Source of the DNA: Candidatus Woesearchaeota archaeon
GTDB taxonomy: Archaea; Nanobdellota; Nanobdellia; Woesearchaeales; GW2011-AR9
Assembly (NCBI GenBank): GCA_018676855.1
Contig: JABHDY010000003.1
Location: 62,001-126,000 of the forward strand
Length of the DNA stretch: 64,000 nucleotides
Direction of reading: 5' to 3'
Shown: positions 55,378-63,952 of the stretch, piece by piece
Layout: every line of letters starts with the position of its first letter
Numbering within the stretch: position 1 is the stretch's first letter
Program-made: the position numbers and the translations under genes
The notes under the pieces: generated by a model
Databases searched by the model: none
Told to the model about the DNA's origin: nothing
Seen by the model: the letters and a program-made list of their open reading frames with translations, nothing else

Positions 55378-56484
55378 TCACCCAAAAATCTTCTTAAAGA
55401 AACTTTTTGAAGGTTTCTCTTCTTTTAGCTGTTTAATCAAGTCTTTTTGTTTTTTAGATACTTTTTTGGGAACTGTTACTTTAACTTTAACCATCTGATC
55501 CCCATGGCCATGATGCAGAGAGGGTAACCCTTTATTTTTCATCCTAAATATTGTCTCTGATTCAGTTCCAGCAGGTATTTTAAGTGACGCATTACCATTT
55601 ATTGTTGGCACGTCAATATCATCACCAATGGTTGCCTGTGTAAAACTTATAGGGACAGTAATTTTAATATCGTCACCATTTCGTACAAAATATTTGTGCG
55701 GAGTAACATTAACTTCAACATATAAATCGCCTGAGGGGCCATCATTTGTTCCTACCTCTCCCTCTCCACGTACACGAAGACGCATACCATCATCAATACC
55801 TGCAGGAATAGTAACGTCAATCTTTTTTTGTTTTCGTACAAGGCCCTCACCACCGCACGTTTTACATGAATCTTGTGGTAGCTCACCTTTACTATGACAG
55901 TACGGGCATGGACTTGTTTGCTGAAACAATCCAAATGGTGTACGTTGTGTTCGTTTCATGTATCCTGAACCGTTACAATGATGGCATGAATCAAACTTGT
56001 GTGCTCCTTTTCCACTACAATCTTTACAATGTTCAAGTTTGTTTAACGGAATGGTTTTTGTTGTTCCTTCTGCAACATTTTCTAACGTAATTTCTGTTTC
56101 ATATAATAAGTCTGAACCTCTACGTGCATGTGAATGTTGTCGCCTTCCTCCACCAAATAAACTGTCAAACACGTCATCAAAATCGCCAAAAGAACCTGAC
56201 CTAAAATGTGACATGATATCAGAATAGTCAAATCCTTGTGATGTCTGACCACCTTGGAATGCATTACTGCCAAATTGATCATACTGTTGACGTTTTTTTT
56301 CATCTCCAAGAACAGATGCAGCTTCACTTATTTCTTTAAACTTTTCTTCATACTCTTTCTTCTTCTCTTCAGGTGCTTTATCAGGATGATACTTCATTGC
56401 TAATTTCTTGTAGGCTTTCTTAATCTCCTCTTTAGTTGCACCTTTCTGCACTCCAAGTAATTCATAATAATCTTTATCTGCCAT
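55378..56484 (-). CDS. dnaJ: chaperone DnaJ (Hsp40)
   Basis: A 368-residue type I DnaJ. J domain at residues 1-66 with YHPDKAP (HPD); Gly/Phe-rich region (about 70-110); four zinc-binding CxxCxGxG-type repeats ([36 protein letters not shown]); then C-terminal substrate-binding domains. It stimulates DnaK. Its ATG overlaps the end of the PEP-swivel/HD gene by 11 bases, so it is translated from the interrupted chaperone operon. Confidence 0.97.
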
Positions 56485-58558
56485 TGTTTAATTGTTCTTT
56501 TAGTTGATCTGGTGTGAATGGTAAATGTTCAAACAATTTTTGTTCTTCTCGTTTTATAATTGTAATTCTTTTGTTCCAATATTGTTGATCTCTTGAATAT
56601 CGTATTTGTAAGTCCACCATCCGATCATCTAATGCAATAACACCATTATCTTTTGTACGCCAATCTGCGTAATGACTAACACTTTCTTCAACAGTTTTAT
56701 CTTCTTTTAATGGATCGCTTGAATTTAATGACGCAACTGCCAGTTCTGGATAATCCTCCTTCAAAAATGTGTAGAGGGCTTCTGATTCGTGCATCTCAGG
56801 ATATTTCTCTTTAAGATGTTTCCACATTGCAATCTCCTCTTCAGAATATTCATGAGGATAAAATTTGGTTGGAGCAAGATTTTGTATAACAACAACTTTA
56901 AACAAATCGTGTAATAATGACATTCGATCAACAAACTCAACATTTATGTCAACACCATTTTCCCTCAATTTTTGTGCAAGAAATATTGCAACTTTCTGTA
57001 CACTAATACAATGTTCTCTAATATTTTGAGGAACTTTATATGTTTCAAACAGTTCAAGACATTCTTGTTCGGTTGGAAGGTTCATTGAATGTAAAGAATC
57101 TTGAGTTTCTTTTTCAATCTTTCTAACAATACCAGTATTTGCATCTACTTCAACTAAATCTCCATCTTTGAATACTTTAGTTGCATTTAATGTACCAATA
57201 ACACAAGGCACCCCAAATTCTCTAGAAATAATTGCTGCATGTGAACATATTCCACCTTCATTCGTTACAATCGCACTTGCTTTAGCTATTGCAGGAAGGA
57301 ACTCTGGACGTGTTTGTGAAGCAACCAAGATTTGTCCTTTTTTCATCTCTTGCATTTGTTTAGCAATGTCTTGAACATTCATATGCAATATTTTTACTAT
57401 TCCTTTAGCATAACCCTTGTTTGCGATATTACCTTTCAGTTCATCTCCTTTATATGTCTTGAATAGACTGTTAGTCTCAACATAATCTTCAGCTTCTTTA
57501 TTTGTTCTAAAATAAAATAAGGAATTTTTTAGACAAGCAACATAGAATTTCTTTCTATCCTCTATCTCTTCACTAGAAACTCTTTTATTATTTATCATTA
57601 CATTTTCAAGTTCTTCTATAGTATAATAGTTAATATCTTCTAAATCTAAAGAAAATCTATTACTTACTTCATGGAAAATATTACGTAATGCCCATTCTCC
57701 ACAAGTCCAAGTCATCCGCAATTTTAGTCTAATATTAGAAAACTCTTTTATTTTCTTTAATAATTCTTTTATCTCTAAAGAAATCTGATATTTATTAATT
57801 GATTCTAGTTGTTCTTCTTTTATTTTATTGAATCCTTCTTTGATATTGATAATTTCTTCTTTGTATTTTTCTTTTTTATTAATATCTTCATCATACTTTT
57901 GTTCATAGTCTTCTACTGTTTTTGGTTTTATTCCTTCTCCAGTTCCTAAGAAATCATATTTATTATAATACTCTTCAATTAAATATTTTTTCTTACTTTC
58001 GTCGGTGTTAAGAAGAGAAAACCAATCCAATTCCGCTTGTTTTAGAATGCTAGGTTCTGTTGGAGTGGTTAAGACTAAGAACTGTTCTGTTATATTGGGA
58101 ATCTTCAAAGTTTCCAAGTAGTCAACTATTTCTTTTTGTACTAATTCAAAACATTGTGGTTGAGTAGTATGGTACACTCCAAATACTTCATTTATTTGTC
58201 GATTAACTTCTATAAATAAATGTACTAATTCTTCATCGCTTATTTTAGAAAGATCTTTATTATAAACATCCCTAAGAAAAACTAATTTGTCTTCAATGAT
58301 TTCTTTAGCTTTTTCCAATAATTGATTTGACCTAATAGGATCTGAAAATAATTTTAATCCTTGTTCAGCTTCTATCTTCATATCTTCTTTTGAATAAAAA
58401 GTCTCAGCCGAACCATTTTTTACTACCATGATAGAATTTGTATAATTAGTTCCTAGATATTTCTTAAGGATATTCCCAGTTGATAACAAATTTAGTTGAG
58501 CGAAGACTAGAAAAAAGTTACTTGATTCCCAAACTTTTTGATAATTTACTTCATTCAT
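56474..58558 (-). CDS. PEP-utilising swivel domain fused to HD domain
   Basis: 694 residues. The first about 390 are helical and charged with no family I can name. Residues about 395-475 are the phosphohistidine swivel domain of PEP-utilising enzymes ([40 protein letters not shown], His in the SHA motif). Residues about 500-680 are an HD hydrolase-like domain ([38 protein letters not shown]). The ATP-grasp and PEP-barrel domains of PEP synthases are absent. It lies inside the chaperone operon, overlapping both neighbours, and looks more AT-rich than dnaK and dnaJ. Function unknown. Confidence 0.82.
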
Positions 58559-61537: not shown

Positions 61538-61612
61538 CTAAACCATTTAGAACGCAACTAATATATAAATCTTTTGGGAAAAGTTTAAGAATATGTGTCA
61601 CATCACTATCGT

Positions 61613-62008
61613 ATGGCCAGTAAGATAACCCTTGTTAGAATCAGACGAACACCACACGAAAACATTAACCAAGAACTTCAATGGTTTGGCAATTCTTTAG
61701 GATTATTTAACCTTCGTGACAAGGATAGTAGTTGTTTCCGTGTTTTTATCACATTAGTACGAAAAGCAAAGCGAAATGAAACCATTTCTTCAGACGACAT
61801 ATCAGATAAGCTAAACTTGAGTAGGGGAACGGTTGTACACCACCTTACAAAATTGATGAATTCGGGTTTAGTTGTACGTGAAAAAGGAGGATATTTGTTA
61901 AGATCAAACAATCTTTCTAAAGTCATACGAGACATACAACGAGACGTTTCTGCAATGTTTAATGAGTTAGAAGATGTTGCAAAGGAAATTGATGATAAGT
62001 TAGGATAA
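61613..62008 (+). CDS. winged-helix regulator, divergent from chaperone operon
   Basis: A 131-residue protein. The centre is a winged helix (SSDDISDKLNLSRGTVVHHL; KLMNSGLVVREKGGYLLRS) and the C-terminus a helix (VIRDIQRDVSAMFNELEDVA), like ArsR-type archaeal repressors such as Phr in layout. The ATG at 61613 is preferred; an in-frame GTG at 61595 exists. It shares a 102-base promoter region with grpE, so it is a likely heat-shock or chaperone regulator; this is inference from position. Confidence 0.8.
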   Translation: MASKITLVRIRRTPHENINQELQWFGNSLGLFNLRDKDSSCFRVFITLVRKAKRNETISSDDISDKLNLSRGTVVHHLTKLMNSGLVVREKGGYLLRSNNLSKVIRDIQRDVSAMFNELEDVAKEIDDKLG

Positions 62009-62056
62009 AATCTTAAATCCCAAATATTTTTATACAATAACTCTATCCTAGACACA

Positions 62057-63952
62057 ATGCACGTCAATGAGTTTCGTACATCATGTGAACTAAATAAATA
62101 CCCACAGGAAAAGATACATCTTTTTCAAAAAGCGATTGATATTGCACGAACAACATTCTCAGAAAAAAAACGTATAGCAGGAGATTCATTTTTTGACCAT
62201 AACATGCGCGTCGCAACGATTCTTACAGAAAGCAATTCTGAAGCAGAATCTGTCATTGCAGGAATTTTGCAGGGTATACTTCCCCACATGAAAAAAGAAG
62301 AATTAAAAATTCATTTTGGTACAGAAATTGTTCGTTTACTAGAAGAAGTGGACGAACTTAAGGAAATAAAAAGTAGAAACAATCAACTAAGCGCAGAATC
62401 ATTACGAAAAATTATCATAACGACAGCCCAAGACATCAGATCAATTTTTGTTAAGTTTGCAAACAAGTTAGATAACATGAGAAGCATTATAGTTCTTCCT
62501 CAAGCAGAACAAAAAAAGATAGCACAAGATGTATTGGACATATATGCTCCCCTTGCATATAGACTTGGAGCAGAACGAATTCGTACACAACTTGAAGACA
62601 TTGCATTTAAAGTTCTTAACCCACGAAAGTCAGAAGAAATCATTACATATCTTGAAGAGTCACGTGAACAACGACAGAAAAGTATTGATGAAGCAATTAC
62701 ACTTATACAAAGAACATGCTCTGAAAAAGTTGACATCATTAAAATTAAAGGACGGCCAAAGCATGTATACAGTATTTATAAAAAAATTCAAGCAAAGAAA
62801 GTTGGCCTTAACCAATTGTTTGACCTTCTCGGTCTTCGAGTAATTGTGGCGGAAGAAAAGGATTGTTATACACTTCTAGGAATACTACACGAAGCATTTG
62901 AACCCAGCCCAGGACGGTTAAAAGACTTTATTGCAACGCCTAAACCTAACTTTTACAGGTCTATCCACACAGGCGTAATGTTACCTAATGGTAAAGTAGC
63001 AGAAGTACAAATTCGAACTCCAGAAATGGAAGAGTTTGCAGAAGAAGGATTAGCATCACATTGGAGATACAAGAAAATCAAATCAGATGATTTGTTTGAA
63101 CGACGAGTTGCCTGGTTACGAAATGTTTTAGAAATGCAAAAGAACCTTGAAAATAAAGAGCTTTTACAAACAATTAAAGTCGATTTGTTTGGTGATAAGA
63201 TTTATTGTTATACTCCAAAAGGAGATGTAAAAGAATTGCCAAAAAATGCAACCATACTTGACTTTGCCTACCTTGTGCATGAACATATTGGCAATAAAAC
63301 AGTGGGTGCCCGTGTTAATGGAAGGTTTGTCCCCATAAAACATAAATTAATTTCTGGAGATGTTGTTGAGATTGTTACAAACAAAAATCAGAGGCCTCGG
63401 AGAAGTTGGATAAAAATTGTATTGTCTGCAAAAGCTCGACAACGAATACGTAAGTCACTTAAAGAATATGAAAAACTGCCAGCATTATACTTCAGACGAA
63501 TAAAACCATCAGTAACGGAAGAACAAGGAGTATTAGTTCAGTCAGAAGATTTTCCTAAAGCAGTATGTGTTTTAGCAAAGTGTTGTCGAGCAATTCCTGA
63601 CGAAGAAATCGTAGGAATTATTACAAAACGGAAGATTATCTCTGTACATACAAAAGAATGTAAAGCTGCATTAAAAGAAGAAGAACGATGGATTCCAGTC
63701 CAATGGAAGGACACGTTTAATCAAAGAATTAGATTTTATGTTCGAGCAACCGAAAGAAGTGGCCTTTTAGCAGATTTGTTACATACGATCGTTAACGCAA
63801 AGTTTGAAGTGAAGGAAGCGAAAGCAAAAATGATTGGAGAAAATGTTGCTGAATGTTCATTTTCTGTCATTCCACGAGATTTAGATCATCTTAAAGAATT
63901 GATACGACGTCTTGGTAAAGTGAACGGGTTTAAAAGAATTAGTTTTGAATAG
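62057..63952 (+). CDS. rel: RelA/SpoT homologue, hydrolase site lost
   Basis: A 631-residue long RSH. Residues 1-180 align with the HD hydrolase domain but its HDxxED is replaced by LQGILPH and the NKLD... motif is altered, so (p)ppGpp hydrolysis should be absent. The synthetase domain (about 215-345) keeps GRPKHVYSIYKK, FDLLGLRVIV, GRLKDFIATPKP (an RxKD-type loop), NFYRSIHT and EVQIRT, so it may be active. TGS (about 388-450, DLFGDKIYCYTPKG) and a C-terminal ACT domain (from about 560) follow. TATA-like ATTTTTATAC about 27 bases upstream implies a leaderless mRNA. Long RSH proteins are rare in archaea. Confidence 0.93.
   Translation: MHVNEFRTSCELNKYPQEKIHLFQKAIDIARTTFSEKKRIAGDSFFDHNMRVATILTESNSEAESVIAGILQGILPHMKKEELKIHFGTEIVRLLEEVDELKEIKSRNNQLSAESLRKIIITTAQDIRSIFVKFANKLDNMRSIIVLPQAEQKKIAQDVLDIYAPLAYRLGAERIRTQLEDIAFKVLNPRKSEEIITYLEESREQRQKSIDEAITLIQRTCSEKVDIIKIKGRPKHVYSIYKKIQAKKVGLNQLFDLLGLRVIVAEEKDCYTLLGILHEAFEPSPGRLKDFIATPKPNFYRSIHTGVMLPNGKVAEVQIRTPEMEEFAEEGLASHWRYKKIKSDDLFERRVAWLRNVLEMQKNLENKELLQTIKVDLFGDKIYCYTPKGDVKELPKNATILDFAYLVHEHIGNKTVGARVNGRFVPIKHKLISGDVVEIVTNKNQRPRRSWIKIVLSAKARQRIRKSLKEYEKLPALYFRRIKPSVTEEQGVLVQSEDFPKAVCVLAKCCRAIPDEEIVGIITKRKIISVHTKECKAALKEEERWIPVQWKDTFNQRIRFYVRATERSGLLADLLHTIVNAKFEVKEAKAKMIGENVAECSFSVIPRDLDHLKELIRRLGKVNGFKRISFE

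Follow-up and report, generated by a model that had tools for sequence, protein, structure and literature searches.

What does an archaeon do with a full-length Rel protein that has lost its hydrolase residues? The question is raised by a gene of a Candidatus Woesearchaeota archaeon at positions 62,057–63,952 of the window, i.e., the whole stretch of 64,000 nucleotides analyzed here. To our knowledge, the stringent response was long regarded as largely missing in archaea, and we know of no report of archaeal (p)ppGpp by 2021; both species tested lack an RSH, which we count against the explanation favored below. A 2011 survey described long RSHs as absent from archaea (PMC3153485), and a survey from 2021 recorded RelA/SpoT in 41.7% of Woesearchaeota and inferred transfer from bacteria (PMC8407392). 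In our own search of 371 genomes from the phylum, 173 had RSH matches, about 110 of them long RSHs (an approximate count, made by eye from the match list) and the rest partial or weak. With these numbers, the remark in an earlier sequence-only reading of this DNA that long RSHs are rarely reported from archaea is outdated. What is new is the family-wide pattern of dead HD domains, of which we found no description in the literature searched, rather than archaeal long RSH as such.

The gene is an uninterrupted forward-strand reading frame with an ATG start, and the features described within it lie on the same strand. It encodes 631 amino acids that combine pseudo-HD, synthetase, TGS, helical, zinc-finger (ZFD), and ACT regions in a single chain, the architecture of long RSHs. 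Pfam domains appeared in the long-RSH order, all above their cut-offs (HD_4, aa 26–172; RelA_SpoT, aa 232–340; TGS, aa 382–441; ACT_4, aa 558–624), and the score against NCBIfam TIGR00691 (546.4 bits; curated cut-off 499.2) places the protein in the long RSH family. Nearest by sequence among solved structures were 6yxa (B. subtilis Rel), 8fr8 (RelA, a longer GTP pyrophosphokinase), and 5iqr (ribosome-bound E. coli RelA). An AlphaFold2 model of the 631-aa protein (mean pLDDT 79.7, pTM 0.59) gave fold matches to ribosome-bound RelA, B. subtilis Rel, and the catalytic domains of S. aureus Rel. The TGS domain (63,200–63,379; Pfam and alignment) includes a conserved histidine, H408, assumed to occupy the same column as E. 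coli RelA H432; all four zinc-finger ligands identified by alignment, C509, C510, H531, and C535 (63,581–63,661), are conserved; and the ACT domain (63,728–63,928) shows unusually high conservation in the window's family.

About 25 nt 5' of the start codon lies a TATA-like stretch, ATTTTTATA (62,026–62,034, forward strand), the position of which would fit a leaderless archaeal transcript of the RSH gene. Upstream is a winged-helix regulator (ArsR/Lrs14-like by profile matches; 61,595–62,008, forward strand), found beside RSH in the same genus only, among the loci compared. Convergent RSH and GAPDH genes were seen at 10 of 10 further loci examined, with an RsmB-like and then an AmpS-like gene usually next. 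The genome assembly comprises 943,853 bp in four contigs and is 92.8% complete with 0.03% contamination. Since the gene sits on a 704,354-bp contig near archaeal eS8 and uL1, the 16S rRNA fragment of the genome scored best as archaeal, contamination is this low, and 40 of the 49 genomes of the window's family carry an orthologue, we rejected contamination, the source that the sequence-only reading had held in reserve should no archaeal relatives be found.

We compared the HD_4 domain (62,132–62,572) with bifunctional Rel and found its catalytic residues gone. In the alignment, LLHDVVEDT corresponds to ILQGILPHM, so that the HDxxED site reads Q-G-I-L-P-H (aa 72–77; 62,270–62,287), and LADRLHN corresponds to FANKLDN (aa 134–140; 62,456–62,476). 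Going from RelSeq to the archaeal protein, H77 becomes Q72, D78 becomes G73, E81 becomes P76, D82 becomes H77, and D144 becomes N136; E81 and D82 are catalytic residues in the RSH hydrolase family. R39, H48, and N140, equivalent to RelSeq R44, H53, and N148, are retained. In RelSeq, Mn2+ is held by H53, H77, and D144, and the guanine contacts include R44 and N148 (PMC13299517); of the three metal ligands, H53 alone is kept. There is no HD dipeptide anywhere in the 631-aa protein, and the hydrolase site is therefore not restored by a shifted motif, the finding that would have spoken against the sequence-only reading.

The synthetase domain (62,750–63,076; Pfam and alignment) presents a different picture. 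R233, K235, S239, K243, D256, R261, K289, K296, N298, Y300, H304, E316, and Q318 are present; the motifs GRPKHVYS, RLKD (the loop, aa 287–290), NFYRSIHT, and EVQIRT are retained; and R233, K235, S239, D256, R261, K289, D290, N298, Y300, S302, H304, E316, Q318, R320, and T321 are identical in 27 of 27 first-set members. At the motif level, the intact synthetase site and RxKD loop are those of bifunctional Rel[HS], and the combination of inactive HD with active-type synthetase is that of RelA[hS], the ExDD loop of which is lacking: the archaeal protein has RLKD where E. coli RelA has EFDD. The earlier description of this protein, namely all four RSH regions, HD-ED replaced, LADRxHN changed to FANKLDN, and a synthetase keeping GRPKHVYS, an RxKD-type loop, and EVQIRT, is thus borne out by domain matches and alignment, and a synthetase-only long Rel in an archaeon is supported at the sequence level.

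The same pattern extends through the family. Of its 49 genomes, 40 carry this long RSH, none with an intact HDxxED, and the motif is fully dead in 39. The 40th (L030, genome G138) is 42% identical, has HS...KK for HD/ED with D144 and H147 kept, and looks like a possible intermediate in hydrolase loss. Grouping by sequence gave 40 f1-type rows: 39 come from the family, and one from G187, which belongs to the phylum sample and to another family. All 40 keep R44, H53, and N148 (RelSeq numbering here and below), whereas the catalytic positions are variable; at position 147, His has given way to D or E in 39 rows (D in 35). E. coli RelA, by alignment, has lost R44, H53, and N148. The loop ends in KD in 40/40 f1-type rows (RLKD/KLKD-type) and in 18/20 other dead-HD archaeal sequences, i.e., xxKD in 58/60, and it reads xxDD in 19/42 archaeal Rel with intact HD (L033, L037–L045, L049, L050, L062, L065, L069, L072, L074, L075, and L084), a combination that the bacterial set almost lacks (3/77 intact, among the matches listed). 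In proteobacteria, a dead HD is coupled with ExDD (PMC3153485). Because dead-HD archaeal rows are mostly xxKD and 19/42 intact ones are xxDD, this coupling is no rule there, and the RxKD/ExDD rule fails in Rel of these archaea. The retention of RxKD pointed out in the sequence-only reading thus stands, but the contrast with RelA is less distinctive than suggested there.

We next asked how strongly the pseudo-HD is constrained, using pairs matched for synthetase identity (58–68%). HD identity was 51.6% in the window's family, 60.5% in intact archaeal Rel, and 61.8% in bacteria; the corresponding values were 64.9%, 35.6%, and 27.8% for ACT and 59.7%, 44.3%, and 59.0% for ZFD. Against the genus sister, dN/dS was 0.067 in HD, 0.115 in the synthetase, and 0.084 overall (rough values, dS being near 1). 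With intact frames and these ratios, we rejected a decaying pseudogene, and the pseudo-HD is, on the sequence evidence, not decaying debris. The simplest reading is that the HD pocket would be retained for binding or synthetase contact, without catalysis; retention of R44, H53, and N148 may instead serve folding. The dead HD of E. coli RelA controls its synthetase (PMC8012599).

A tree of 69 sequences was built from the synthetase-to-ACT region with HD left out, alongside a separate quick tree of 105 rows; the bacterial sequences were drawn from the matches listed, a sampling that fixes neither the root nor a bacterial donor. Bacterial sequences, including one RelA-like row, formed one group (100/99), and archaeal Rel formed two deep groups. 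The window's gene fell among archaeal Rel, apart from proteobacterial RelA, and its family was sister to f80, another family with dead HD. Direct descent from proteobacterial RelA is not supported by this tree. The analogy with RelA drawn in the sequence-only reading, which had proposed such a phylogeny as a check, therefore holds as convergence and fails as descent, given this grouping and the residues kept here and lost in RelA. Dead HD needs six label changes on the tree (5–6 in the bootstrap; at least three forced by strongly supported branches), which suggests that the hydrolase was lost about five to six times in the class. Within the window's family, long Rel is inherited vertically.

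We also searched for a separate alarmone hydrolase. Profile searches of the 92.8% complete assembly detected no second HD_4 (the RSH gene being the sole match), no second RelA_SpoT, and no NUDIX domain, the last being matched in 14/14 control genomes; such HD_4 and NUDIX searches would miss a divergent hydrolase of another fold. Neither a partner SpoT nor the stand-alone hydrolase (SAH) that the sequence-only reading had suggested looking for was thus seen, and a replacement small hydrolase was likewise not found by the HD_4 profile. A hydrolase could lie in the missing part of the assembly, though 34/40 family genomes show the same absence. A small intact-HDxxED protein occurs in 6/40 family genomes with long RSH, one of which also has a second Rel. 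In G054, two long Rel occur together (L006, L086), one with dead HD and one, from the other archaeal clade, with intact HDxxED. Small HD_4 proteins were present in 7/8 genomes of f80 and in 2/41 genomes with intact Rel (Fisher tests, descriptive since they ignore relatedness: f80 vs. intact, p = 3e-6; f80 vs. window's family, p = 2e-4; window's family vs. intact, p = 0.15). Of the seven f80 motifs, five were HDTLEN or HDILEN, one was HDTLED, and one was HDTLEE, so that the second acidic HDxxED residue is N in 5/7 of these proteins (L205–L208 and L210–L212). Since hydrolase loss is near-universal in the window's family and a replacement is found in few of its genomes, how the alarm is switched off becomes a testable question.

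A synthetase whose product is not turned over should be toxic, and E. coli RelA needs SpoT. This expectation favors a synthetase-only Rel whose HD has been replaced by a non-RSH hydrolase, as do the small HD_4 proteins that accompany the dead Rel of f80. One candidate lies in the window itself (56,474–58,558, reverse strand), flanked by dnaJ on one side and a gene for a low-molecular-weight phosphatase on the other, next to dnaK-grpE: a 694-aa protein in which a PEP-utilizer mobile domain (aa 406–476) is fused to a TIGR00295-like HD part that matches stand-alone frames of ~215 aa in many family genomes. Another is a second HD protein, of 229 aa, on the same contig. However, the TIGR00295-like module belongs to a different HD family and also occurs with intact Rel (18/60 matched; none in f80, f64, or f69), and it therefore does not track hydrolase loss; as a loss-linked replacement it is unsupported, and we consider this kind of explanation unlikely. 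The PEP-mobile-domain region had 12–20 matches per genome in G169, G080, G104, G376, and G085, some with internal stops, which suggests that some members of the archaeal family have a large set of such paralogs.

Hydrolysis by the HD domain itself, through a rearranged metal site, would draw on H53 and the fixed acidic residue at 147. Yet H77 and D144, two of the three metal ligands, are gone from this protein together with D78, E81, and D82, there is free variation at these positions within the family, and D78A and R44Q each abolish RelSeq hydrolysis, as cited in PMC13299517, so that continued hydrolysis is hardly credible. That the protein makes no alarmone in the cell, and acts as a ribosome-associated or amino-acid-sensing scaffold or as synthetase of some other pyrophosphorylated product, would suit the ACT, ZFD, and helical regions, which, compared with other Rel, are under the strongest constraint; against it, the synthetase catalytic residues are invariant and RLKD/KLKD-type loops are found in 40/40, and we regard it as very unlikely.

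The reading we favor, and hold to be probable, is that of a ribosome-gated, synthetase-only full-length Rel of DPANN archaea in which the pseudo-HD is kept as a regulatory and perhaps alarmone-sensing module; we infer its catalytic activity, its gating by the ribosome, and ligand binding by the pseudo-HD. The protein would make (p)ppGpp or a related alarmone without being able to hydrolyze it. On a stalled ribosome, its C-terminal half (TGS, zinc finger, and ACT) would recognize deacylated tRNA, as in bacterial Rel/RelA, and thereby release the synthetase. The dead HD, having lost metal binding and catalysis, would persist as a pseudo-enzyme; because the guanine-contact residues R44 and N148 are kept, it most likely still binds the alarmone or a guanine nucleotide, or at least brakes the synthetase conformationally. 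Alarmone removal would fall to some further enzyme, dilution, or the reverse reaction. More tentatively, and less likely than not, a whole archaeal family might run a synthetase with no dedicated hydrolase, its old hydrolase pocket serving as a (p)ppGpp/guanine-nucleotide sensor and regulatory site for gating the synthetase on archaeal ribosomes, with loss repeated several times in the phylum, one clade using a separate small hydrolase and the window's family other means.

That long Rel is under strong constraint and vertically inherited throughout a DPANN family suggests a native alarmone system. The repeated losses of the hydrolase, some accompanied by a replacement small hydrolase and some not, offer natural replicates of the RelA/SpoT split, and both the role of a pseudo-hydrolase domain and the way a cell copes with a synthetase when it has no known hydrolase become directly testable.

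Compared with known systems, the protein is closest to bifunctional Rel (6yxa; S. aureus Rel, 7oiw; RelSeq, 1vj7/24io), which supplies its best sequence and fold matches and agrees with it in the order of domains, in synthetase motifs and the RxKD-type loop, and in the TGS histidine and zinc-finger cysteines, but does not share its loss of HDxxED and of two of three metal ligands. With beta- and gamma-proteobacterial RelA[hS], such as E. coli RelA, it shares a long RSH with inactive HD and intact synthetase; in contrast, RelA is a separate lineage with ExDD, has lost R44, H53, and N148, and works beside SpoT, whereas no partner hydrolase was found in the archaeal genome. Intact long Rel of the same phylum (e.g., L035, L063, and L039) are likewise archaeal long RSHs and 34–40% identical, but keep HDxxED, and 19/42 carry xxDD. 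The dead-HD Rel of f80 (L029, L052, and L056) belong to the sister clade; unlike the window's protein, they have a far more eroded HD and are accompanied by a small HD_4 protein in 7/8 genomes.
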